This document shows positions 9,101 through 29,015 of a DNA stretch of 48,824 bases, piece after piece; positions within the stretch are counted from its first letter, which is position 1, and each line of letters starts with the position of its first letter. Under the pieces are notes generated by a model. It was not told the origin of the DNA. It made no database searches and saw only the letters and a list, made by a program, of their open reading frames with translations. The position numbers and the translations under genes are program-made. This DNA comes from a virus, in the IMG/VR virus record IMGVR_UViG_3300020578_000124, positions 1-48,824 of that record. One strand, written 5' to 3'.

Positions 9101-12100
9101 CAAACACATTATTGACCCATTTCACAAGATTTTCTCTGGCTGTTCTCACATGTTTTATCACAGTTTGTCTTGGTGTTATGTCTAGACCAAATTTTCTCGA
9201 TCCCTGCAATTCTGGATCAGGTACTTTTCTATCTGCTAGATCTCTGGCCACTAGACTGTCTATGATTTTGTTTTCTATTCTTGGCGGAATAATGATGTCC
9301 CTAGATCCTTCCTGAATCAATACAAAGTCGGAATGTATGATGTTTTCAGTCATGTGTCGTTTTGATGACACATGTAGTATACTGTCTCTGGCTTTGATGA
9401 ATTGACCTATGTTGTACAGTCCCAAACTGTTTTGTTTGTAGACCACCATGTAAGGAATATTTTGATTTTTAGGCCTAAAAATCATATCTTCCAGCACTAC
9501 CACACTGTGACGTTTGCGAGAATTGGTGATGCTGCGTTTTCCTCTCACCCAGTAAAAATATCTGCTCACAAAAGCATTGGTGCTGGGATCCACATACACT
9601 GATTCACTATAAGCTCTGTTATCGACATACAGCGGCACACCATCTTGATTGTTGGCTTGGTACAATGAGGGCAAGAATTCACTTTCTATCCACTCATAAA
9701 CTTCAATTGTGGAACCGGGAAACAACTCAGCCCAATGATTGGCTCTATAATCTAATTCACCTTGTTCATAATGAATGTATCTGCAACTGTCCATGTTCCA
9801 CCAATAGGTGCCCACTTGTTCTTGTGCCCAATATGACAATTCATCTATGGGCAAATTCATGTCTTGAGTGATATTTCTCACACCGCTGCGATATCTGGCA
9901 GGATCAATGCTGGTGGTGTAATCTAGATCTTGTTGAGCCTGACCCAATATTCTGCCTTTGGCTGGATCTAACATATCCAATTTGGTGAGAAATTTTTGAT
10001 CGGCTTGAGAAAACAAATAGAGATTGTTCACACTGTTTATGTCTACTATGAAATCTTGAGTCCTCACAGGAAAAAAATCATACTCAGGAGATAACACGGG
10101 TTCAATTTTATCGGTATAAACACGCACATTACCAGAAAGATAGATTTTAGTAGAATCATAATTCTGCGGCACTGACACAATTATATATACAAGAGATTCG
10201 TTTTGTTCCACTGAACTCACGCAAAATGTCATGTCATTGCCTGCAGAAAACTCAGTTTCGCCTCTGTCTGCAAAAACCACACAATCTTTTACATCAGTGG
10301 TGGTGCTGAGAAAAGATTTCTCAGCAGTAAGATGCCTTTCGAAACTAGGTCTGTTTTGATCTAGATCAGTGAAGAAAGCTGCTCGTAACTGTGCGTTTGA
10401 CAGAGAAAAATTGTTGACCAAGGCATAATTGGTCCAACGAGCCAATTCAGATGTGTTGGCTGTGCTGTAGAGACCAAATCTCACTAGATTTTTGGTTCCT
10501 TGAGAGTAACTGAATGATCTGTTACTGATGAAAAGATCTATGATGTTTTGAGCCTTTTGTTCAAAGACTGTGGCATTTTTATTGTATATCACACTGTATT
10601 TGGCAGCGAATTCTTGAAAGGTCCAACAAGTCTCGGCATTGCAATCTTTAGATACCACACTGTACACCAAAGACAGACTTTCCTCAGTTGTTTTGATTAA
10701 ATCATAATCCAATCTACGCAACTTGGGCCTGTACACCGACCAAGTTTCACACACAGTGTCACTGGCATCAACATAAAGCAAATCTCTATTATCATCTAGA
10801 TCTTCCCATGTCATGTTGTTTGCAGTGACATAAATCAAAGAATCTTGATCTGTGGGCTGTTCAATGGAATAAATCAACGTTTCTGTCATGCCCTGTGTCA
10901 TCACAGCTAACCTTATGGTGTCCCCTGCTGTTGTGGTTGAAAAAACTGCTGTATTACCAAAATTCCTGTATCTAAACAGTGCGCATCCTTGAATATCTTT
11001 GGTGTAATCATCAAAGAATTTATTATTTGTGAGACTTCTGGTCAAATCAATTGGATCGGTCATGTTGTTGTAAAATTCATTTCTCAAAGACAATGTAGTG
11101 ATGTATCTGTCTGTGCTCAAGGCATGGTCAACCCACATGGCTAGACTATCTGGGTCAACTGTGCGACTTAAACCATATCTTATGGTGTTTGCATTGTCTA
11201 TGACCACATTAAAAGCTCTATTGGATTGATACAGTGGCAATAGATCATGAGCCTTGGCTTGAAAATCAATCACAGTGCGACCATACAAGGGTGCCCAACG
11301 TCTGGCAAAGTCATACACAGACAAACAAGAATCAGCACCATCTAAAGCCAGCACACTATAGAAGTATCGGTCATTCCAGGCTCTTTTGGGTTTGTGTGTG
11401 ATAAGATCAGTATAACGTGTAAACCTCAGCTTGATAAAATCAAACAGTTGTCCTCGAATGCCAGTTAACTTTGCATTGGTCAAATTTTGAATTTGCTGAG
11501 TATCTGCCAACACAGAAAAGGTCTTGTCTGTGGTGTTTACCACCAGATAAAACCCATCAACTCTGGTGTCTATTCCTCGCACAGCCACCAAATCATTTCT
11601 TTTCAACTGGTGCACGTGAGACATGCTGAATCGCATTCTATTGGCAGTGTCTAGATCTACAGCAGTGATAGAGTTTGTGACATATTGAGTTGCGCAATAG
11701 ACCTGCCAACTTTTATTAAAATCCTTGGCAACCCATAATTTGAATCCTGTGTACAAGCTGTTTTGTATGGTCAATGATCTGTAATTTTGTATGTCGAAAA
11801 ATCTAAAATCCACTTCATCAACTCTGGGATAACCCGCAGAGTGCAGATCATCCTCATAGTATCTATGATGACTTTTCACACTGTCCTTGATCACTTGTGA
11901 TACCACTGGGGCCAATACTTTGTCAACTAACGCAGTGTATCCAGCTTGCGTGGGATGAACGCCGTCAATGTCCAAATATGCTTTCCAGTTTTTGATCACA
12001 TCAGCACTGGCCAAGTAATCACCGTATTCATCGGCTACATCACGCATGACATTGACATACTCTTTCAACGTGAATGATGTGGTCAATGCCCAAGTGGCCA

Positions 12101-15100
12101 CTGTGGTATCAACTTCAGTGGGCGTTAACCACACAATCTTTTTGTGCATGGGCAGTCGTTGTCTCAGCAGTGACAAATTTGATCTATAAACTGAAAGAGG
12201 AATATTTGATCTAGCATCATTGTGACCATGATTTATGATCACAATATCGGCTTCAATGTCATCTGGCCAGGTAGCGTTTACCCCATCCGATCCGGTCAAC
12301 AGTTGCCCCGATGTGCTGCCAGTCACAGATCTAGTGGTCACCGTAACATCATATCTGGAGCTCAGAGCCAAATATAACAAATGATCTGGTGGCAACGGCA
12401 CTCGTCCGTCGGTTTTATTAAACCTGCAGGCTAAAACTTGTTCAAGTCCTGATCTGGCATTGGGATTGTCATTATACAACACTTCTTCTATGCTGTAGAT
12501 TAGAGGTTCATCAATGGGCGCCGACACTGAGAAATCACATCTGGTATCAAAAAACACAGAAAATTCTGTGCCGGGACTGGTTAAAATTATACCGTACTCA
12601 AAGACATTCTGTGCTAGTTTGCCGCAAAGAATGCCATCACCAAAAATTTCCACACGCTGTTTGGCGACCACACAGTTAGAACGATTTAAGAAAATTTTTG
12701 AATCATAATCTAAAGTTTTGAAATATAAGTGATTGGGGTTTACGGTGACAAACAATTTATCAGCTGATTTGACTCCAGCAGGTAAAAATACCAAGTTTAT
12801 GGGATTTGTGTTGTACACTGACTCTGAAATTAATAATGACAGTTCGGGATTGGCATCGATGGCGCCATACTCACCAATCCTGGCAGCCCATTCTTCATAA
12901 AGTGTGATGTTTGTGAGTTCGCCATCAAAGATTCCTCTACTCATCACATCAACACTGCGCCTGGTACCTTTGTCCTTGATGAATCCTTGATAAAATTTGC
13001 TTTGTGATGTGAAATCCATACCAAGATTTTCCAAGTACGGTCTACTTCTGTGACCTATGATGGCAGTGCTGAATTTGGCAAATGTCTCATTACTGGGAGG
13101 TTTGTCTATGTCGTATATGTTTTCAAACATTTTAGAACTGAAAGCCAGATTTGGCAACAGTCCTGCCAGTATGGGCCTATCCAATGGACTCCATTTGGAA
13201 AACATAAAGGTGTCTGTGGCAGGCTGAAATTCCAAGGCTGTGTAAACTTTGTCTTTATAACTTACTATTTGACCTCTACGATAGTCTTTACCACTCTTCC
13301 AGAAATCAATTTGTTTTTGTTGCAGCACAAACCCCGAGGGTGTGAGTTCTCCGTCCCAGTCTGCAGTACGTTGACCCATGAGCTTGACACGATATTGTCT
13401 GTTGCCCACTTCAGACTTGTATATCACATCATTAAACACTGTGGTGTTGTCTAAAATCAACACATGTTCAAACTGAATCAAGTTCAAGTCAGCAAAAGCA
13501 ATGGTGGCTCCGGTAATGGTGGAAATTTTTGTTCGGCCATTGTCACGCAAAAACACCAATTCTGTGTTTTTAAATGTGTTAAAATTTACACCCATGACTC
13601 TAGAATCGTATACGGTGCCTGTGTTCCAACCTTGACTATTCACACTGTCCACCACACTGTTTGTGCTGACTATGTCGAGGTCATTTTTCACAGGACTCAA
13701 TATCAAAACACTGTTTTCGGGCCAACCCTGCACATTCCAAGTCAATAATTCTTGTATTGATAATTCCCAATTTAGAGCCTGTGCCAGCTCAGTGTCGTAT
13801 CTGTCAAACTCAAAACCTTGACTGATTAAGAACCTTTGATAACCAATGATGAAATCACTGAGTTGTTGTAAAGTGTTGAATTCAAAACCATAGTTAACTG
13901 TATATTTTTGTAAAAGAAATCCACGATAGATCACCACAGTTTGATCCATCACAGACAAGGTATACACATCACTGGCAGGATCATTGGGTATTATGGTGAA
14001 AAAGGGAAATTTTGGATCGTATCCAGACACCGACCATCCCAAATTGGTTTTTTGTACTATGACCGCACTATAAGTTATTCTAGTAATGGGCACAGAACGA
14101 TGCAAGTGCAATTGGTAATTTTCATCAGGTATGGTGATTGAATTATTTAAACTGCCGGGTGTGAATTGCTGTGCTTGCACTGTGAGAAATTTTTTATCAG
14201 AAAAGCCTGCCATGGCATAACTTAATTTGATGTCGGCCGCTGCCACCTGTGATGATATCACAGTGTTTGGTTCCAGACCCTGATGCACACAGTAATTAAA
14301 AATCCAATTGGTATAACCTAGAGCACTGACATAGTCCGAATCAAGAGACTGTCCATTAAATTTAGTGTCTTTAAATGAAATTCTAGTTTTAGACTCACTG
14401 TTTGTGAATTGTCTAAAATTTGAAAGGCTTTTGAGCACAATATCTATATTATAGCTTGCAGAGTCAGCTTGAATACTGAAATATCTTGCAGGTTTCATCA
14501 AGGCCATGGCTCTTATCAAGGCAAATGGATACTCGCTGCTGCGAAACCAAGCCGATTCCACAGGGCCACCATCACCCACTTTCCAGCTGCGAGCAAATGT
14601 TTCCGAATTGTAATTTCTCACTATCAATGACAAGGGACTGATCAGCTGCCCGCTGCTGTTCACTGGCACGTAAGAATTGAAATTTGATCTAGCATACACT
14701 GTGTCAATCACAGTTGGGGCAGACGGATTAGAAACTAGACCCGACACACAGGCCAAGATCAAAGCTGTTCTTTGAACTGTAACAGTCCAACTGTAGTGAC
14801 TATCCCACCACACAGGCTTGACACTGTGTCCTAGCATTTCCCAAGGATGTGTGTGTGGTCTATCTGTGTCGTAGAAATATCTGTATATGGCTCTCCAGAA
14901 ACCCGGTAAATTTTCTTGATCGGGGCCTAAAGATCTAGAATAATTATAAGTGAATTGATCATTGCTGGCAAAGGCCTGATTAGATATGTAATCTACCTGT
15001 CCCTGACCTGCCCACTTTAAAAAATCATTAGAAAAAATTCTAACAAATTCATCTCTGCTATATTCGGTGTTTCTAAAAAAACCAGGCATGTATCGATGAT

Positions 15101-18100: not shown

Positions 18101-18893
18101 TATCTATGTCCGTGAATCTTTCGGTGAGAGCAAGATCCACTGTGCCAATAAAAGGAGATGTCACGATACCATTTTGTTCATGACCTTGGGGCACAGAGAA
18201 GATTATGGTGTTGGTGCCATTGTTTGTGACTCCAAAAATGTTTCTAGTGCTACTGCCCGGTGCATAATCTTTTATTCCATCTGATCCGGGTTCAGTTTGT
18301 ATGAACAGATTTCCAACACCTGTACCTATGTTGAAAGTGTAAGTTTCCCCACGCCGTAATACCAGCTCGGGATTCAGTGTGGTGCCGGTTTGATTGGTAA
18401 CGATATTGGCAGATTGATAGGTGATGTTTATGATATTGCTGAGGAAATTGGTCTTATTGCTGATCAAGACTTCTTGAGGACCAGTGGGTAACCAATAGTA
18501 TTGGCTGTAATTAACAAGTTTATCTAAATTTATTTGTGGATCAAACACATAGTATTCAGATTCAAACAAACGCTGTGCATTGTCTGTGATTCCACCGTGA
18601 TATCTGATTATGTCAAGCAAATTATTGTAATTAGCGTAAGTGGAAACAATGGTGTTTCCCATGATCACAAATGAAGGTTCTAGTTGATAATTTTGTCTAT
18701 TGGCTGTGGGTTCTATGACATAAGTGATGTCCGGATTCACAGTGGGGCCGAACTGACGACCCACATAACCATTTACGTCTCTGAGCCTGGGTTCATTTAC
18801 CAGATTATCCAGAGTGCTGCCGAGAAACTTTTTATTGGTGTCAGTTTGAAATACAGCAGGCAGTAAATCAAAAGTTTTTCTTTGTAGAGCCAT
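6171..18893 (-). CDS. Giant baseplate-region virion protein, 4240 aa
   Basis: One uninterrupted frame of 12.7 kb directly after gp6 (13 bases apart), where T4 has gp7 and gp8, so a baseplate/adsorption role is inferred. Visible modules: residues ~172-255 a cupredoxin-like fold lacking copper ligands; ~1855-1895 a chitin-binding-like stretch (DYRRGQIVSYKDKVYTALE); ~2080-2330 an SGNH/GDSL-hydrolase-like domain with FGDG, SVTGSTSG, NHGHND and DGVHPT; ~2525-2640 and ~2757-2871 two diverged copies of a DUF4214-like module; C-terminus with NGERVIYYT and RRGVGG, as in phage surface domains. The catalytic Ser position of the SGNH domain is Gly, so hydrolysis is doubtful. Far longer than T4 gp7 (1032 aa). 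The start ATG at 18893 fits; the domain borders are estimates. Confidence 0.85.
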   Translation of the reverse strand: MALQRKTFDLLPAVFQTDTNKKFLGSTLDNLVNEPRLRDVNGYVGRQFGPTVNPDITYVIEPTANRQNYQLEPSFVIMGNTIVSTYANYNNLLDIIRYHGGITDNAQRLFESEYYVFDPQINLDKLVNYSQYYWLPTGPQEVLISNKTNFLSNIINITYQSANIVTNQTGTTLNPELVLRRGETYTFNIGTGVGNLFIQTEPGSDGIKDYAPGSSTRNIFGVTNNGTNTIIFSVPQGHEQNGIVTSPFIGTVDLALTERFTDIDNRIFTQGSTTFSGQVLYPNDVYVVFVQSSDLSADWTDSTGTVVASDRRRGLWQIKLYTDPSTAQVRTRLNFVRKIAPGTRFTVQRGHLRGREYVVNTQGKFEIADSLTAPLSTLYYQNDTQGICGKIKLVDSVPIAANVTTDILNKVNYTSPDGVKFTSGLKIKFDDTINPPQYRNRTFVIEGVGKAIKLVDWSQLVSPEVIAPQAGVPFDFVNYDQGLYDETFSGSLTPDYIVCDRAGIDLNAWARINRWTHIDVIKQAATLNGVTPTIDQKNAAKRPIIEFKPDLKLFNSGKKFLSPVNKFFEKGFKVVQAGNIQDFNISILFTKTFRYIQQTLNIDIDINDTVVFASDADPNIASKIYSVSAKNLIPRQLTVNDPTLSGTVGIVRQKFAIGTGTKFKTEVQVGDQLFLSDNTYIGKVLRIMGDTELEFTDSVPRISGISGVRNKHSVIELVEITTAQQLNTVVCLSGHNSGHTFVYNTNGVWQRCQRKTQLNQPPLFDIVDKNEISLATAYSASNFAGSKLFSYKVDATVLDSVLGFGLDYTGVGDFIGDINFENNYITDTFMYKPDNINSVKLPVSVGYISRWVDNSMLGNVLTNWNTVGSNTRQYQLFTGIHNGTANLMTIDVPALVSQSSLTDPPNIKVFVNNKFHNRINADLSVAYTANISDSGTKITLSSSTSIKSGDKIDVLIFSDKVSKSGHYQIPVNLEFNPENKQISEISLGQLRNHVIKIGENVQGLIGDILYNNNLRDLEYSTVSGTLLQHSGALPLAMWFLFDRNLTFMDSLDFARKEYSKFKNRFVETMESFKDLNLFDPATAVDRILSKINQVKNNQSPWYHSDMVATGTDHVLRQIKIASGNTFSVSNWHKVNYLASNHAVLIYKNDQLLIRGIDYEFISNSQCPSCVQLTTVVPSDVITIKEYSNTKSSFIPETPTKLALFPKFLPMRYLDNTYRTPTWVIQGHDGSLIPAYNDARDQIILELELRIYNNIKVNYDSQRFNNHRYMPGFFRNTEYSRDEFVRIFSNDFLKWAGQGQVDYISNQAFASNDQFTYNYSRSLGPDQENLPGFWRAIYRYFYDTDRPHTHPWEMLGHSVKPVWWDSHYSWTVTVQRTALILACVSGLVSNPSAPTVIDTVYARSNFNSYVPVNSSGQLISPLSLIVRNYNSETFARSWKVGDGGPVESAWFRSSEYPFALIRAMALMKPARYFSIQADSASYNIDIVLKSLSNFRQFTNSESKTRISFKDTKFNGQSLDSDYVSALGYTNWIFNYCVHQGLEPNTVISSQVAAADIKLSYAMAGFSDKKFLTVQAQQFTPGSLNNSITIPDENYQLHLHRSVPITRITYSAVIVQKTNLGWSVSGYDPKFPFFTIIPNDPASDVYTLSVMDQTVVIYRGFLLQKYTVNYGFEFNTLQQLSDFIIGYQRFLISQGFEFDRYDTELAQALNWELSIQELLTWNVQGWPENSVLILSPVKNDLDIVSTNSVVDSVNSQGWNTGTVYDSRVMGVNFNTFKNTELVFLRDNGRTKISTITGATIAFADLNLIQFEHVLILDNTTVFNDVIYKSEVGNRQYRVKLMGQRTADWDGELTPSGFVLQQKQIDFWKSGKDYRRGQIVSYKDKVYTALEFQPATDTFMFSKWSPLDRPILAGLLPNLAFSSKMFENIYDIDKPPSNETFAKFSTAIIGHRSRPYLENLGMDFTSQSKFYQGFIKDKGTRRSVDVMSRGIFDGELTNITLYEEWAARIGEYGAIDANPELSLLISESVYNTNPINLVFLPAGVKSADKLFVTVNPNHLYFKTLDYDSKIFLNRSNCVVAKQRVEIFGDGILCGKLAQNVFEYGIILTSPGTEFSVFFDTRCDFSVSAPIDEPLIYSIEEVLYNDNPNARSGLEQVLACRFNKTDGRVPLPPDHLLYLALSSRYDVTVTTRSVTGSTSGQLLTGSDGVNATWPDDIEADIVIINHGHNDARSNIPLSVYRSNLSLLRQRLPMHKKIVWLTPTEVDTTVATWALTTSFTLKEYVNVMRDVADEYGDYLASADVIKNWKAYLDIDGVHPTQAGYTALVDKVLAPVVSQVIKDSVKSHHRYYEDDLHSAGYPRVDEVDFRFFDIQNYRSLTIQNSLYTGFKLWVAKDFNKSWQVYCATQYVTNSITAVDLDTANRMRFSMSHVHQLKRNDLVAVRGIDTRVDGFYLVVNTTDKTFSVLADTQQIQNLTNAKLTGIRGQLFDFIKLRFTRYTDLITHKPKRAWNDRYFYSVLALDGADSCLSVYDFARRWAPLYGRTVIDFQAKAHDLLPLYQSNRAFNVVIDNANTIRYGLSRTVDPDSLAMWVDHALSTDRYITTLSLRNEFYNNMTDPIDLTRSLTNNKFFDDYTKDIQGCALFRYRNFGNTAVFSTTTAGDTIRLAVMTQGMTETLIYSIEQPTDQDSLIYVTANNMTWEDLDDNRDLLYVDASDTVCETWSVYRPKLRRLDYDLIKTTEESLSLVYSVVSKDCNAETCWTFQEFAAKYSVIYNKNATVFEQKAQNIIDLFISNRSFSYSQGTKNLVRFGLYSTANTSELARWTNYALVNNFSLSNAQLRAAFFTDLDQNRPSFERHLTAEKSFLSTTTDVKDCVVFADRGETEFSAGNDMTFCVSSVEQNESLVYIIVSVPQNYDSTKIYLSGNVRVYTDKIEPVLSPEYDFFPVRTQDFIVDINSVNNLYLFSQADQKFLTKLDMLDPAKGRILGQAQQDLDYTTSIDPARYRSGVRNITQDMNLPIDELSYWAQEQVGTYWWNMDSCRYIHYEQGELDYRANHWAELFPGSTIEVYEWIESEFLPSLYQANNQDGVPLYVDNRAYSESVYVDPSTNAFVSRYFYWVRGKRSITNSRKRHSVVVLEDMIFRPKNQNIPYMVVYKQNSLGLYNIGQFIKARDSILHVSSKRHMTENIIHSDFVLIQEGSRDIIIPPRIENKIIDSLVARDLADRKVPDPELQGSRKFGLDITPRQTVIKHVRTARENLVKWVNNVFATLPLAYRVFDKNRSISDNFFAKDDFPPKRTTPSQNPNSVYDMVVDTYADINVPIVGVNDSKTILVKQDENNGNYWTLYQKINSGSVIKNIFLRRQAFDVSKLWKFVNWYHPRFSDQTVPDHTVERFSDVYGLNLSDGDVVKVKNTLQTYPTQTQGTVTVQGKFELFEFYSDANRLRMRRVGLESGTLAIDFDFYKIYGYDTSALDTELFDFEPAIEMRYVLQGLRDDVFIEEHRYLYDSMFFYLIDYILSEQKYIDWFMKTSFISVVHSVGGLTQRPTLIKDKQQDFENFMMEAKPYRTKIRQYTLSYTRTDTVGVYLTDFDLPVVRDSNNGKFHVINGDDPVIDATFLNRFQFAAWKENNKFQISGIDLVTSGYGYFSCDKVTVSAPEVVIVRTDSHANTNVHATASVSSITGSIQKIQVDVPGTNYVTTPVVKIAGNGGTSVVDNEFVMYEVISRGTANTDPRSTSLRNSRTQTDIHTNSGTSPGGLVLHVIRFVDGRVMFSEFYQNTSNGVNLFNEDINQVGRDFLVVVAVAGTFDMSSSDLKQSLYRKGASEVILTGYQPGGAYILLGVTGAVQSQGIEIYSGSSANNTMSWATVRFKIQRGRFSAIESHPRLPVLSTAFGYPATPVVNQIYNYGDRSWRFTGTKWVNAKILSPNLVNRPESRRALAVARLSNHQLRKVRTVMRFDRTQYVSTVVDWLPDTGYPINTVLSYQNQAYVTKTNMPAAEKFNFAFVRLIGQDQPSASRNARHGFFDNANDRIMAFYLPTKDNDFIPKILDRLVTGVLGSWTRYNGTTKTIPLDTNLIGDRFGSTAGVSAGNISIIGGSFVDVKASHAPEELVPGIIFDAISIRTVTSQSPFQGHRLFIDMGNARVCTSFTSNTVTTLASDLNYTDTTIVVTDGGRLSEPNPGLLIPGVLEINGERVIYYTKAGNVLGQIRRGVGGTGTPNKHLSGSQVEDVSVPARSSINCDTP

Positions 18894-18905: not shown

Positions 18906-21900
18906 TCAATAATAACCGGACTGATACGAACCCGAACCACCCATACCTGATTGGGAATAACTAGACGGGGCAGCTTGCCTATTGCCTCCAAGACCACCTC
19001 CGCTACCACTGATGTACTGACCACCAACAGATCTATTGGCGCGAGCCAAAGCTTGGTTGAGTTGGCTGGCTGTGATGGCTGAAATAATTTCCACATCAGA
19101 CACAGTGGCAGCACTGATTAAGATTTCATTGGCATCTGCATTGATTTGGTAAAAGCTACCAAAGCTCAGCACAGTGTCCTTGGGCACAATGATAACACTG
19201 GCCACTTGGGGTGCCAGCTGTTGATGTAAATAAGCTGCCAATTCGCTGAAATAAAATGTTTCCCCAAAATCCCAATTATCCACTGAGAAAAATTCATTTA
19301 TTTTGCTGATCAATGATGCTTTGATATCACTATCGCTGACATTTAGCCCTGTGTTTTTCACCACCTTGAATGTGGCCTGCAATGCTGTGTCAGCTTTGGC
19401 ACCAAACAAAGGTTTAAATCTTGCTGTGTTAAAAATCAAAGTGTCGCTGATGCATTTGAATTGTTCTAGACCCGAATAATTCATTTGTAATTCTGTGTTC
19501 GTGGGTGCCTCGGGCTCAATGACTTTACCAGTAATGTCATTGAGCCATTGTCTATAATTTTGATCGTAACTGTTGGTCAACACATATAGATCCACAATGT
19601 TGCTGATATTGGGATCTATTCTATTGGTGAGAGGACTGTTGTGCCTGTATTGAAAATACAGATTTTGTTGCCCCACATGAGCTTTGTACCGTGGTTGATT
19701 GGGAGACAATCCATTAATTTCCTGACTTAAAACTTTCTGTGCTTGATTATTCAAAATAACTGAATAAAATCCGCTAGTGCTTTGAATATAAATCAATTGC
19801 CCCACAGGATAATTTCGTAACACTTCTTTAGAAAGTTGCTGGACATTTTTAAAGTTACTGATGACTTTTTTATTGTCCAAAAGTTTCCAAATACCATAAT
19901 TTTCATAGCCTTGCGTGAGTTCAAAAAACACTAAATTATCGTTTATGACAATGCCATTTCTAAAGGCCTGGGATTCAGGACTGTCTGCTATGGTCTGTCT
20001 GACCAAATCCAAGGGATTATTGATGGCCAATGTCACATAGTTGTCTAATTCATTTTGTCTAGGATATCTGCCGGTGTAAATCTTAAACCATCGATTGATC
20101 TGATCACCGTAAGTGTTAGCAGCAAAATATTGCACACTGGTCTGCGATTGAGTGCCCAGCACGATTCTTTCAAATAGATCAGGAAAATCCGGTACACTGT
20201 CATCATTTGTGTCTGCAAAAGTCAAGTAAATGCTTTTATTCTCCACATAGCCATCACTTCTTGTGATGGCTCGGTCCACATACCACACATAATCCTGATT
20301 CAGTGGCGTATTTGTTCTGGGATCTCTGTTGGTGGCAAGAAATTTAACATGATCTCTCACAATGGAATTGTTTTCTACGTCATAGATCTGCAGAGATCGA
20401 TCATGGAAAAAATTAGTGTCATACTCACTGTGCACCACATAATTTATTCCTCTGTAGTACACTGTGTACACTGAAGAAATTTGACTGTATTCAAATTTCA
20501 GCCACCATGACTGAGGAGTGCCTAGGTTGGCCGATGCCACAAATTGCCAGGCCTGGTTCACATAACTGTAGATCAAACCAAAGTTATTGAAAGATTCAAT
20601 TTGCGTGATCATGGTGTTGACCAAACTGTCACTCACAGTGTTATTGAACACAGGAATCACACTTTGTATGATGGCACCTGTGGGTATAGGCACGTTGATA
20701 CTCACAGGACCTATTCCGCTGGTGAAATTACCTAGCCCATTATTGGTGCCATTACCCACAACTTGTGTGATGGCAGCAAATAATGTTTTGGTGTCACTGT
20801 GTGTTATGGGATGACCTCTCATGAGATTATAATTGCTGTTGAAATAATAACCGGGTGGCGCCACACATCTAATCATGGCCCCGGGCCGCATGTATCTGGC
20901 ACGATTACCCGATGTCACTGCTATGGCTGCTGGCACAGTGTTATAACTGAAATATCCTGTGGCAGTACCATCATTGACTGTGGATAAATTCCACTTGAGT
21001 TCCGTTCGCACCAGACCATCGCCATAATCTAACACAGTGATCTTGCCAGACATCGTAGAATGCTCTGCACATGCGTAGTAGTAATCTCCGGGTGTAACGT
21101 TTTGTGTGTCCCAGACCACAGTGCCGTAGTCTGAGCCGTTGCCGGTTATCACACCAGTGGAAACACCAAAATTTGTACCTGTGACTCTCTGTGTTTTGAT
21201 CCAAAAAGGATGACCCTTGGCTGTGATCCTAAATTCCAGTTTGTCACCCACACGCACAGTTATATCGGGATTGGTGCCTTGTGCGTGGCCACTGAACACG
21301 TAACCTCCTGTGATAGCGGTAACAGCATAATCTTTGACCGAGATGCCTGTGTTTTCAGCCTGAAAAATCTCATATAATTGACCGTATTTTGCGCCAAAAC
21401 TGATCCAATCTGTGGATCCTGTGTGTATGATGGTGTATGTTTCTCCATTGATCATACGATCTGAGTTGAGTTCTATGTTTATGGGCATTTCTTCTGCTGC
21501 ATTAGCATAAAACAAATGTCGCATGTCTGTGCCGGCAATGATATTGGGAATGACCTGATTTCTAACCACTCGTCTTATGTCTACGGTGTTTGTGAATTCA
21601 AAAGTCAATAATCGCACATATCTGTCTGCGTATAACACTCCATCTGATCCAAAAACATTGGTGCTGCTGTATTTTCCCGTGGTGTCTAACACATCAAGAT
21701 ATCTGCTCAGTCCCGAGCTGGTTCTGTTAACAGCCTTGACTTTTTTCACAGATGAGTAATTTGTGTAAGGCAAAATATTGTAATCTTCACCTGTGATCAT
21801 ACGATTTTGTGTGTAGTACTGTTGCGGAGCTTTTTGTTTGATGTCAGCAATGCTGTCTCTGCTGAGTGCATTAGACACAGTGTATTGTAGACTGGCACTG

Positions 21901-23130: not shown

Positions 23131-23505
23131 TTAACTCACTTGTGACAAACCAAGTTCTCTATCAAATTGCACAGTCATTACACTGACTTGATTGGTCAAC
23201 ACATAATTGACATTGATTTCTAACATGATGCCTGTTTCAAATTCTGTGACAATGATGTCAGATACCTGTATTCTAGGATCATATGAAGCTATGCGTTTGA
23301 CATCATCGGCAATGGCGTCTCTGATGGTTTGAGTGAAAGGTTCAAACAGCAAGTCCCAGATTATGGTTCCAAAATCTGGATTCATGAGTTTTTCGCCGCG
23401 ACGAATATGAAAATGATTGTAAAGATCTTGTTTGACTAAATTCAAATCAGTGACACGAAATTTTCTTCGTCTGTCCACTGTGCTAAATCCCTGATAAGTC
23501 GGCAT
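23131..23505 (-). CDS. 25: Baseplate wedge subunit gp25-like
   Basis: 124 residues, the normal size for the GPW/gp25 family (T4 gp25 is 132 aa). Typical features: a DLNLVKQDLYNHFHIRRGEKLMNP-type N-terminal half, then PDFGTIIWDLLFEP, TIRDAIADDVKRIASYDPRI, and a closing beta segment. gp25 is the wedge protein that joins gp6 and nucleates sheath contact in contractile tails. It sits between the gp5-like spike and gp6, 12 bases after the spike gene stops. The start ATG at 23505 is unambiguous. Confidence 0.95.
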   Translation of the reverse strand: MPTYQGFSTVDRRRKFRVTDLNLVKQDLYNHFHIRRGEKLMNPDFGTIIWDLLFEPFTQTIRDAIADDVKRIASYDPRIQVSDIIVTEFETGIMLEINVNYVLTNQVSVMTVQFDRELGLSQVS

Positions 23506-26246: not shown

Positions 26247-29015
26247 TTAATCATTTTCGCCAAGTGGAACTGGTGGTAAATCTTTTAATTTAGGGTCACT
26301 TAAAGGTGAGGGATTAGGTTCATACTCTTCGCCGTATTCATTTATTATCCTGCCGTACTCATCGCCCTGGCCTAAAGCATTTCCGTGTCTATCAACACCC
26401 TTGGTGGGATAAGGGTACCTGTTTGCCGGTTTCACTGTTTCATCATTTTCTGTTTGACTGGGCGGCCCGTAAAAGCCACCTGCTTGTTGTTCAACATCAC
26501 CGGCGTTGTCATTGATCACATCTTGCGATCTGGCATACAAATCATTTACAGCAGATTGAGAAGGTGTTGTTGGTTGTTCGGGTAAACGTATACAATCTAA
26601 GATTTGAGTGAACTGGCCTCTTTCAAAAATATTTTTCACAGTGACAATGCTGTATTTTCCAGAAAATACGCTGGTTTTTCCTCCTTTGTACAATCCAGAG
26701 TCTTGATCTATGTCATCATAAAATCTAAAATTCAGAGTGCAAAAAATTTGACCTTGATCTGTGGGAATACTTGTACTGGATTGTTTAGGAGAAAATAATT
26801 CATCTTGTTTGATTAGATCAGGATCGCCAGCTATGGTGATCTGAATATTAAGCATGTCCCCCCTGCTGTTTTGCATGAGACTTCTAAAAAAATCACTGCT
26901 TTCTATAGATTTTCTATTACCTTGATCTAATGCTGTGTGGCGATCCGCCCCCGGTGAGTACAACGCTCTATTGGGAGTAAGTGGATCTTTGCTGTCTCTA
27001 TCTGAATCATTGTCAAGTTTTTCTCTCTTTGCTTGTATTCGTGTCAATTCTTGATTTTGTTCAAATGCAGTGACCACTGTGTAAAACATGGTATTAAAAT
27101 CAATTTTTAGATCCAGTATCTGTTGATTTTTGCCTGTGTACACATAGTTATATTCTTTATCCACAAGCCTGGGAAAACCTTTTGCTGCCTCGGGATATTT
27201 TTGATTAAAATATTCATATTTATTCACTTTGTAAGTTATGGTCTTCTGATATAAATTGGTTTTCTTATCAAATTCGCCATATTTTACTGTGTGAGTGATT
27301 TTATGAACAGTGATGGCTTTTTCGTCACTGACGTTTTCGTTATCTATGTTGTCTTTATAAAAATCACTGGCGGCTATAATTTGATTTATGACTTCTTTGA
27401 TATTGGTGCCAGCCGTGATTTTGTGCGCACCTCTTTGTAATTCTAGATTTGAATTTTCTTTATTTGCAGAAGGCACTGTTACTGTGGCATTGGAAGAGGC
27501 ATCAAAAATTTTAGCCTGAGCAATTTCAGAATCAATTTCAAAAACATATGTGTCGGCATGATCTTTTTTCTTATTTGTTTGCAAAAACTTTTGATACGCA
27601 TTCAGCGCCGCAGGTAAACTTCTGGCCTTGACCTGTGTCTGAGAATTTGGAGTGGTATCTGATCTTGGATTGACTTCATCACTGGTTCGTTTCGAATCAA
27701 AATATTCACCCACAGTTTGAGCCGTGATTTCAATATTCAAAGGAATGGTGGAAACGGTTTGTAACTGTGCAACATGAGCTTGAGGCAAGGCAGTTATTCG
27801 GTATTCTGCACCCCGGCCGCTCAGTGTGATTTGTATGTCTATGATTTTGACCACTATTCTTTTGGTGAGATCTGGTATCAAGTTCAGCACATCACCTGAA
27901 TCTGTGTTGGCAAAAAAATCAATCTGTATCACAAAAGGCATTAAATCCCATTGTTTAATTTGTTTTTCTTGTGCCACCAGTAGTATTCTATCTAGCAACG
28001 ACACTCCCACAGGCTCATGCACCGTGAAAGAAATGTCCACAACGTTGCTGGCACGTGTTTGAGCATTTAGTCCAATGAAACAGTCCATTTTGAAATTTTC
28101 AAAATACATGTCATTTTCAAAATACTGATTTCTAGAAAAATCATTGGATCTACGACCTCCACTGGCTATCAACACCGAGTTGTCATTGGTGGTGTACGAG
28201 GTACCATCCACACACACTTGATTGTATTTTTGTATGGTCATGGCATGTAAACTTATGCCATAGCTGTAATTTGAATATTGTTCTAATGGATTTGGTTTGA
28301 CTTGGCGTTGTCTTTTGGCTGTGACAATCACACGCGGGCCAGTGGCCCCACTGGCTCTGTCATCAACTGATCTCGATGCTGATGGTGCTTGAGTTGTGGT
28401 GGTGGTGTTTCTGTCAAATAAAATACGACGCTGTTCATCTGTGAGTCCTGTGGCCCCTGTGGCCCCTGTGGCCCCTGTGTCTTTTGTGACTCTCGTGGCT
28501 CCTGTGGCTCCTACATTGTTAGTGACATCGGGTCGTGTGCGACGAAGTTGATCATTGTCCCGCAGAGTCAATGCACCATTGCGAAGAGGCTGACCTGGTG
28601 TGAAACCTGCTGCATTCTGATATGGTTGTTGTGTCCTTGGATTAATGGCTTTGGGATCAAAAAACTTATTATTTGCATCACGCACATCATAGTGAAGATG
28701 AGGTCCAGTGGATTGTCCGGCACCGGCCTGCCCTCTACCACCACCTGTGTAAGCAATGAGTTGGAAGGCTTCCACTGTGTCTCCAGGCTTGACCACGATT
28801 TGGGAAAGATGTCCAAAGGTGTGAATTAATCCATCAGAGTCCCGGAGCTGTAATGTGTTACCATAGCCAGTCATTTCCCTAGCCGTCACCACTGTCATGG
28901 GTTTATTGATATATACATTTGTGCCCACTGGCACAGCATAATCTATACCATTGTGTTGTGTTCTCCCAAACAAATTTCTACGGCCAAACCCACTTGTTTC
29001 CCTAGCTACGGTCAT
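26247..29015 (-). CDS. Baseplate hub-like protein with N-terminal M23 peptidase, 922 aa
   Basis: Residues 1-115 are an M23 (lysostaphin-type) metallopeptidase: HNGID (zinc ligands H21, D25), FGHLS (H69) and GPHLHYDV (H106, H108), all present, so cleavage of peptidoglycan cross-links is likely. Next come GATGATG collagen-like repeats, a short Thr linker (NTTTTTQAPS) and a ~680-residue part (TVHEPVGVSLLDRILLVAQ, WDLMPFVIQIDFFANTDSGD, RIVVKIIDIQI) that I take for a baseplate hub protein filling the gp27-like place beside the spike. It lies 1 base from the gp53 stop and 3 bases from the spike start codon region, so the genes are translated together. Hub role is inferred from neighbours; the M23 assignment is firm. 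Confidence 0.85.
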   Translation of the reverse strand: MTVARETSGFGRRNLFGRTQHNGIDYAVPVGTNVYINKPMTVVTAREMTGYGNTLQLRDSDGLIHTFGHLSQIVVKPGDTVEAFQLIAYTGGGRGQAGAGQSTGPHLHYDVRDANNKFFDPKAINPRTQQPYQNAAGFTPGQPLRNGALTLRDNDQLRRTRPDVTNNVGATGATRVTKDTGATGATGATGLTDEQRRILFDRNTTTTTQAPSASRSVDDRASGATGPRVIVTAKRQRQVKPNPLEQYSNYSYGISLHAMTIQKYNQVCVDGTSYTTNDNSVLIASGGRRSNDFSRNQYFENDMYFENFKMDCFIGLNAQTRASNVVDISFTVHEPVGVSLLDRILLVAQEKQIKQWDLMPFVIQIDFFANTDSGDVLNLIPDLTKRIVVKIIDIQITLSGRGAEYRITALPQAHVAQLQTVSTIPLNIEITAQTVGEYFDSKRTSDEVNPRSDTTPNSQTQVKARSLPAALNAYQKFLQTNKKKDHADTYVFEIDSEIAQAKIFDASSNATVTVPSANKENSNLELQRGAHKITAGTNIKEVINQIIAASDFYKDNIDNENVSDEKAITVHKITHTVKYGEFDKKTNLYQKTITYKVNKYEYFNQKYPEAAKGFPRLVDKEYNYVYTGKNQQILDLKIDFNTMFYTVVTAFEQNQELTRIQAKREKLDNDSDRDSKDPLTPNRALYSPGADRHTALDQGNRKSIESSDFFRSLMQNSRGDMLNIQITIAGDPDLIKQDELFSPKQSSTSIPTDQGQIFCTLNFRFYDDIDQDSGLYKGGKTSVFSGKYSIVTVKNIFERGQFTQILDCIRLPEQPTTPSQSAVNDLYARSQDVINDNAGDVEQQAGGFYGPPSQTENDETVKPANRYPYPTKGVDRHGNALGQGDEYGRIINEYGEEYEPNPSPLSDPKLKDLPPVPLGEND
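28440..28515 (-). repeat. Collagen-like Gly-Ala-Thr repeat
   Basis: Tandem 9-base units (plus strand gtggcccct) encoding GAT triplets (Gly-x-y) in the hub protein between the M23 domain and the hub part. Probably a flexible or triple-helical spacer. Confidence 0.8.

Follow-up and report, generated by a model that had tools for sequence, protein, structure and literature searches.

Does a baseplate protein of an aquatic phage carry a copper site, and, if so, would this site take part in the working of the baseplate? This question is raised by a locus within the gp6-like gene of the IMG/VR record IMGVR_UViG_3300020578_000124, whose full stretch of 48,824 nucleotides was analyzed (hereafter, the window) and which probably comes from a large aquatic myovirus. 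Within this gene, the original prediction had recognized a cupredoxin-like domain with a full set of copper ligands and had suggested that a metal-binding or redox-sensitive element might be lodged in the ring that controls baseplate switching. Here, we describe the predicted fold of this domain, its distribution in gp6 relatives and other proteins, and the behavior of its ligands, from which we derive the role that we consider most probable.

Fold and ligand set of a domain within gp6

The assignment of the gene product to the baseplate, on which the question depends, was borne out by two observations: the baseplate wedge profile phrog_10646 covers residues 1–532, that is, the N-terminal core of the protein, and a gp25-like gene adjoins gp6 (table 1). 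On these grounds we regard the 1,392-residue ORF as a gp6 baseplate wedge protein of the T4-like type; the gp6 model of Pfam scores 13 bits on this ORF, its cut-off being 27. The three peptides from which the domain had been deduced are all found in gp6, and the order His, Cys, His, Met that was read from them corresponds to H625, C672, H675, and M678. The domain had been placed at 21020–21290, where the modeled domain does lie, but it extends about 18 residues further toward the N-terminus (residues 581–687). As to its surroundings, gp6 precedes a 4,240-residue virion protein, and it harbors a second insertion, at residues about 980–1050, which is found in the window, L004, L005, and L037 and not in the other aligned relatives; by eye this insert resembles the DUF4214 type, yet a Pfam search of these residues returned no match.

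Table 1. Location of the features of the window that are discussed in the text
Feature	Position	Strand	Basis
gp6-like baseplate wedge protein, 1392 aa	18906..23084	-	ORF; phrog_10646 baseplate wedge subunit, E 2.7e-282
gp25-like gene	23131-23505		PF04965, E 7e-11
Variable gp6 slot, residues 529-691	21012..21500	-	Block missing in relatives such as L011 and L012; Ig-like He_PIG in L008 and L031
Predicted cupredoxin domain, gp6 residues 581-687	21024..21344	-	AlphaFold2; Foldseek and VIA-align matches; PDB profile search
Peptide NPDITVRVGDKLEF, gp6 residues 605-618	21231-21272	-	
Peptide GHPFWIKT, gp6 residues 624-631	21192-21215	-	
Peptide YYYACAEHSTMSG, gp6 residues 668-680	21045-21083	-	
H625, first histidine ligand candidate (GHPF motif)	21210..21212	-	ORF translation and alignments
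C672, cysteine ligand candidate	21069..21071	-	ORF translation and alignments
H675, second histidine ligand candidate	21060..21062	-	ORF translation and alignments
M678, axial methionine candidate	21051..21053	-	ORF translation and alignments
Second gp6 insertion, residues about 980-1050	19935-20147	-	
Third, ligand-less partial relative near N-terminus of 4240-aa virion protein	18186..18407	-	HMM matches
GDSL-like lipase/acylhydrolase domain in 4240-aa virion protein	11934-12371	-	PF13472, E 6e-14
M23 peptidase domain, N-terminus of 922-aa protein	26247-29015	-	PF01551, E 5.7e-21
Major head protein	43470-44645	+	
Subtilisin-like (Peptidase_S8) protein, 860 aa, continues past window end	46244..48823	+	ORF; PF00082, E 3e-20
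Second ligand-bearing copy (GHPFFIKT ... YYVCQFHSNM)	47183..47473	+	Between His and Ser motifs of the subtilisin-like protease

Cupredoxins are a well-known fold, and both structure prediction and structural comparison place the gp6 domain among them, in agreement with what had been proposed. The AlphaFold2 model, computed from an alignment of 36 related domains, has a mean pLDDT of 97.1, a pTM of 0.89, and nine strands; in its numbering, H45 (H625) stands directly ahead of one strand and C92 (C672) closes another, with H95 (H675) and M98 (M678) in the loop following the C92 strand. Foldseek retrieved 168 PDB chains at E ≤ 1e-3 with this model, the top ones being AcoP (E 5e-6) and rusticyanin (about 1e-5), and VIA-align yielded Z scores of 11.2 to copper nitrite reductase and 10.6 to rusticyanin (2.1 Å over 93 residues). 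When the PDB was searched with a profile of 16 domain sequences instead, all 35 matches up to E 0.1 were cupredoxins (amicyanin, plastocyanin, pseudoazurin, azurin, rusticyanin, auracyanin, nitrite reductase, and cytochrome oxidase subunit 2), and the C..H..M residues were in register in the four displayed alignments, the plastocyanin loop being two residues longer. The model is a Greek-key beta-sandwich of the cupredoxin kind, with His, Cys, His, and an axial Met in register with those of amicyanin, plastocyanin, and nitrite reductase; as judged from sequence and model together, residues 581–687 are a cupredoxin in which none of the type-1 ligands is missing.

The likeness to amicyanin, plastocyanin, rusticyanin, and AcoP lies in the fold and in the ligand order (His ... 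Cys-x2-His-x2-Met), identity to type 1 copper cupredoxins being about 11–28% in the listed structural matches. The C-x2-H-x2-M spacing is indeed tighter than in plastocyanin, as had been pointed out, but it does not set the domain apart from copper proteins at large, the alignments showing the very same spacing in amicyanin and in certain copper nitrite reductases. A difference from amicyanin is that the first His is followed by Asn in the latter and by a nearly invariant Pro in the phage family, so that the outer shell of the putative site is non-canonical. The Copper-bind model PF00127 scores 15.5 bits on the whole of gp6 and 18.3 bits on the domain piece, below its cut-off of 21.2, and Pfam alone would therefore miss the domain; the Ig-like He_PIG profile gave no match to the domain of the window.

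These four known cupredoxins are free exported carriers, whereas the gp6 domain is a segment of a phage structural protein with a putative metal site. This contrast bears on the idea that the domain works as an electron carrier in the infected host, after the manner of phage-borne plastocyanin (petE). The fold and ligands do match those of electron carriers, but the domain is internal to a baseplate protein rather than free, and many of the proteins that carry it are structural tail proteins, so that we hold this role to be most improbable and reject the reading as a host electron-carrier gene. In cyanophages, petE is present as a separate gene (PMC2984593), and the viral nitrite reductase of another study is a separate metabolic gene and not a domain of the gp6 type (PMC8115048).

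An optional insert in gp6

To what extent the domain belongs to gp6 as such can be seen from 35 gp6 relatives surveyed in viral contigs. The domain is present in six of them (L003–L007 and L037), an Ig-like He_PIG domain (PF05345) is found instead in two (L008 and L031, in the matching slot after residue about 530; E 9e-8 and 1e-10), and the remaining 27 have neither, their alignments skipping either from ~565–585 to 687–696 or from ~528–540 to 692–698. He_PIG domains, known from phage structural proteins, are thus comparable in that they occupy the same slot and are likewise optional, although they belong to another family and are devoid of the ligand set. The named relatives that best match the gp6 of the window are jumbo myoviruses rather than cyanophages, and the domain is missing from the gp6 of the three isolate jumbo phages that were checked (RaK2, Atu_ph07, and Phosso). 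The intact gp6 copies come down to about three independent lineages (the window with L003 and L004; L005; L006 with L007), since L003 and the window are one virus (99.96% over 10,598 bases), to which L004 is closely related, and a single gp6 is shared by L006 and L007. In these last two contigs (L006 4967-9868 and L007 4646-9547), gp6 is ~590 residues longer, including Thr/Ala/Pro repeats, with a frame break before the C-terminal part. The sixth carrier, L037, has Q, S, and L at three ligand sites, which indicates that gp6 can use the domain without metal.

The cupredoxin domain is, on these observations, inserted into gp6 as an optional and exchangeable element, at a slot whose content varies. 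Exchange is also apparent between close relatives: when the window is compared with L004, 40 of 348 bases differ within the domain and 46 of 3831 elsewhere in the gp6 gene (Fisher p about 1e-21), and differences at silent sites are raised in the domain too, such a joint rise of silent and other differences being expected under allele exchange. Residues 1277–1334 of gp6 are also more divergent than average between these two viruses (15 base differences, with 13 silent codons and one that is not), in which they depart from the cupredoxin stretch.

The optional nature of the insert tells against the suggestion that it would be a redox- or copper-sensitive element taking part in baseplate switching. 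Such a part could be imagined for a domain that sits within gp6, a ring protein, with its ligand set intact. However, most gp6 relatives do without the domain, two have an Ig-like domain in its stead, and one keeps it ligand-less, while the same module also occurs in fibers and proteases; the idea is thereby weakened to the point that we consider it very unlikely, and a conserved switch element was rejected, as presence of the domain varies across the 35 relatives. The part of the original prediction that tied the domain to the control of switching is accordingly not upheld.

A family shared with tail fibers, proteases, and bacterial proteins

Where else does this module occur? A tblastn search with the domain returned 77 places in 65 of 50,697 phage records, mainly of Synechococcus and Prochlorococcus phages. 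The annotations of the proteins in question are baseplate wedge tail fiber connector, tail fiber, subtilisin-like protease, or hypothetical (10 regions were taken from these 77 places). A scan of viral contigs gave at least 587 confirmed matches. Among 33 diverse phage carriers, hand-picked out of 55 candidates, 18 contain collagen repeats according to Pfam and 18 match tail-fiber PHROGs (e.g., phrog_5073 and phrog_6320). The tail or S8-protease proteins of Synechococcus phages ACG-2014e, S-H9-1, and S-H34 and of Prochlorococcus phage P-SSM2 include members of the same domain family, the copies of S-H9-1, S-H34, and P-SSM2 having the ligand set of the gp6 domain; these cyanophage copies differ from that of gp6 in the protein that hosts them and in their position. 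Two PHROG models already contain the domain in their C-terminal part, namely PHROG 9158 (unknown function; E 6e-23) and PHROG 677 (baseplate wedge tail fiber protein connector; E 1e-11), with matches to gp6 that are confined to the domain and descriptions that mention neither cupredoxin nor metal. When the collection was queried with the single domain, near copies and two short matches were all that came back.

The occurrence of the same domain in tail fibers, proteases, and connectors of many phages means that it is not specific to gp6. The size of the family, with the above phage and viral matches and a further 30 loci in bacterial and archaeal genomes, led us to reject a chance motif, and the occurrence of the domain in phage tail proteins is common in our data. 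In the titles and abstract openings of the open-license PubMed Central papers searched, no phage structural protein was described as having a cupredoxin domain.

The window itself offers two further members of the family. One is the ligand-bearing copy within the subtilisin-like protease, a protein that also has long Thr/Pro repeats at its end. The other, near the N-terminus of the 4,240-residue virion protein, is partial and ligand-less; its structure model stays at a pLDDT of 51.7, too low to support a fold, its position is retained in most related contigs, and a tblastn search of phage records with the corresponding region of L009 gave no match. The same virion protein includes a GDSL-like lipase/acylhydrolase domain, and an M23 peptidase domain begins another protein of the window. 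The major head protein is about 67% identical to those of jumbo phages (e.g., Vibrio phage 2.275.O, Pseudomonas phage PA5oct), whereas the tail modules recall cyanophages.

Among these 30 loci are exported single-domain proteins of Acidobacteria and Methylotenera that have kept the ligands, and longer, mostly lipoprotein-like proteins of Flavobacteriaceae (signal peptides were judged from the sequence in both cases). These relatives matter for the nature of the metal, as the site could also be one for zinc, which would enter it in the cytoplasm while the virion is being assembled and act as a structural staple, copper playing no part in life. Free copper is scarce in the cytoplasm, the compartment in which phage proteins fold, a His-Cys-His pattern could hold zinc, and cupredoxins made in Escherichia coli pick up zinc, all of which speaks for such a staple. 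On the other side, fold and ligand register agree with copper proteins, and the family has its exported bacterial relatives, copper being the usual cofactor of the cupredoxin fold in exported bacterial proteins; on balance, we judge a site devoted to zinc to be quite unlikely.

Behavior of the ligands and possible role of the module

Does selection treat the ligands as a set? A profile over 352 sequences gave 378 matches, of which 224 are unique, and H, C, H, and M are all present in 180 of these. Because some of the earlier scan patterns touched the ligands, two scans that exclude them were run, the probe being taken from the N-terminal strand in one and from mid-domain in the other, and all of the best 80 loci of each scan turned out to match the domain; this ranking by likeness to intact-domain probes favors relatives of intact lineages. 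Among the 85 complete, dereplicated domains obtained from these best 80 loci per scan, 80 are intact, with His, Cys, His, and Met all present, five lack all of His-Cys-His (replaced by N/S/D twice, Q/S/S, Y/A/Q, and Y/S/Q), and none is partial for these three. Of the 147 dereplicated domains in a wider set, 139 have the ligands intact, counting one in which Gln replaces the axial Met, and eight are without all three; a tree of these domains with the ligand columns blanked implies a minimum of five changes between the intact and the lost state, with 80 of its 144 inner branches left open. Of 15 further positions that are highly conserved, 11–15 are retained in each of the eight ligand-less rows, six of which also retain the Met.

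Both sets comprise matches that cover at least 90 of the 108 model columns, with rows at least 90% identical and of the same ligand state merged; the coverage filter thereby set aside, among others, short class-B matches, ligand-less matches that are split (L258 and L307), and L151, a copy from a bacterial MAG. Some of these speak against a strict all-or-none loss: L151, outside the counts, has lost the Cys alone, and the class-B copies of L013 and L023 retain the first His only. The Gln in the position of the axial Met belongs to an Acidobacteria MAG (L140 4854-5333), and such a substitution is seen in stellacyanins. With L151 and L140 as exceptions, the ligands appear to be maintained by selection as a set. 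A joint gain or loss of His-Cys-His is the pattern to be expected, at the level of sequence, from a metal site that is either used or released from selection, and the 80 intact, five fully lost, and zero partial domains, the chief new finding here, point to a selected metal site, the identity of copper being putative. The homologs surveyed show residues that, rather than varying freely, are retained or lost together.

The same counts weigh on another explanation, according to which the domain is a structural beta-sandwich with ancestral ligands, holding no metal in the virion, where these residues would matter for folding only. Ligand-less domains with the rest conserved do persist, in the gp6 of L037 and in fibers or other proteins (L265, L270, L299, L323, L339, L168, and L169), and a ligand-less partial relative is retained in the neighboring 4,240-residue virion protein. 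Residues needed for folding should nonetheless drift singly, which none of the 85 domains of the ligand-blind scans bears out, and between the window and L004 all four ligands are the same when their immediate neighbors (residues 671, 673, 674, and 677) have changed. We therefore regard a purely structural use of the ligands as rather unlikely.

Our preferred reading, to which we lend somewhat more belief than doubt, is that the gp6 insert is a module of a widespread phage-tail cupredoxin family and serves most likely as an adhesion or decoration knob with a metal site like that of type-1 copper proteins. In this scenario, a cupredoxin inserted as an optional module in the variable slot of a T4-like gp6 would be exposed as a knob at the baseplate periphery, where it would do the work of the Ig-like domain seen in related phages; surface exposure and adhesion are here what we infer from where the module occurs. 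A mononuclear metal site of the type-1 kind would stabilize the knob and shape the contact surface around it, the site presumably sitting beneath a loop surface that varies between close relatives. As virions are assembled in a copper-poor cytoplasm, copper would most plausibly fill the site after lysis.

It is tempting to extend this reading and to suppose that copper is at work in the tails of many aquatic phages, whose type-1 copper modules, on baseplates and collagen-like fibers, would be built empty and filled on release, thereby sensing inside from outside or forming the adsorption surface. We deem this extension improbable, but, if it were true, phage particles would be an unnoticed copper-binding pool in lakes and oceans.

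More generally, the sequences suggest that some phage tails bind a metal that nobody has looked for: a phage-tail module that keeps or loses blue-copper ligands as a set predicts metal in virions. If metal does bind, a new cofactor would be added to the known parts of the phage adsorption machinery, and phages might interact with trace copper in the water. If it does not, the module would plainly illustrate how a copper fold can be turned into an inert building block. Either outcome puts a name on a domain that is missed by Pfam and present in many uncharacterized tail proteins.
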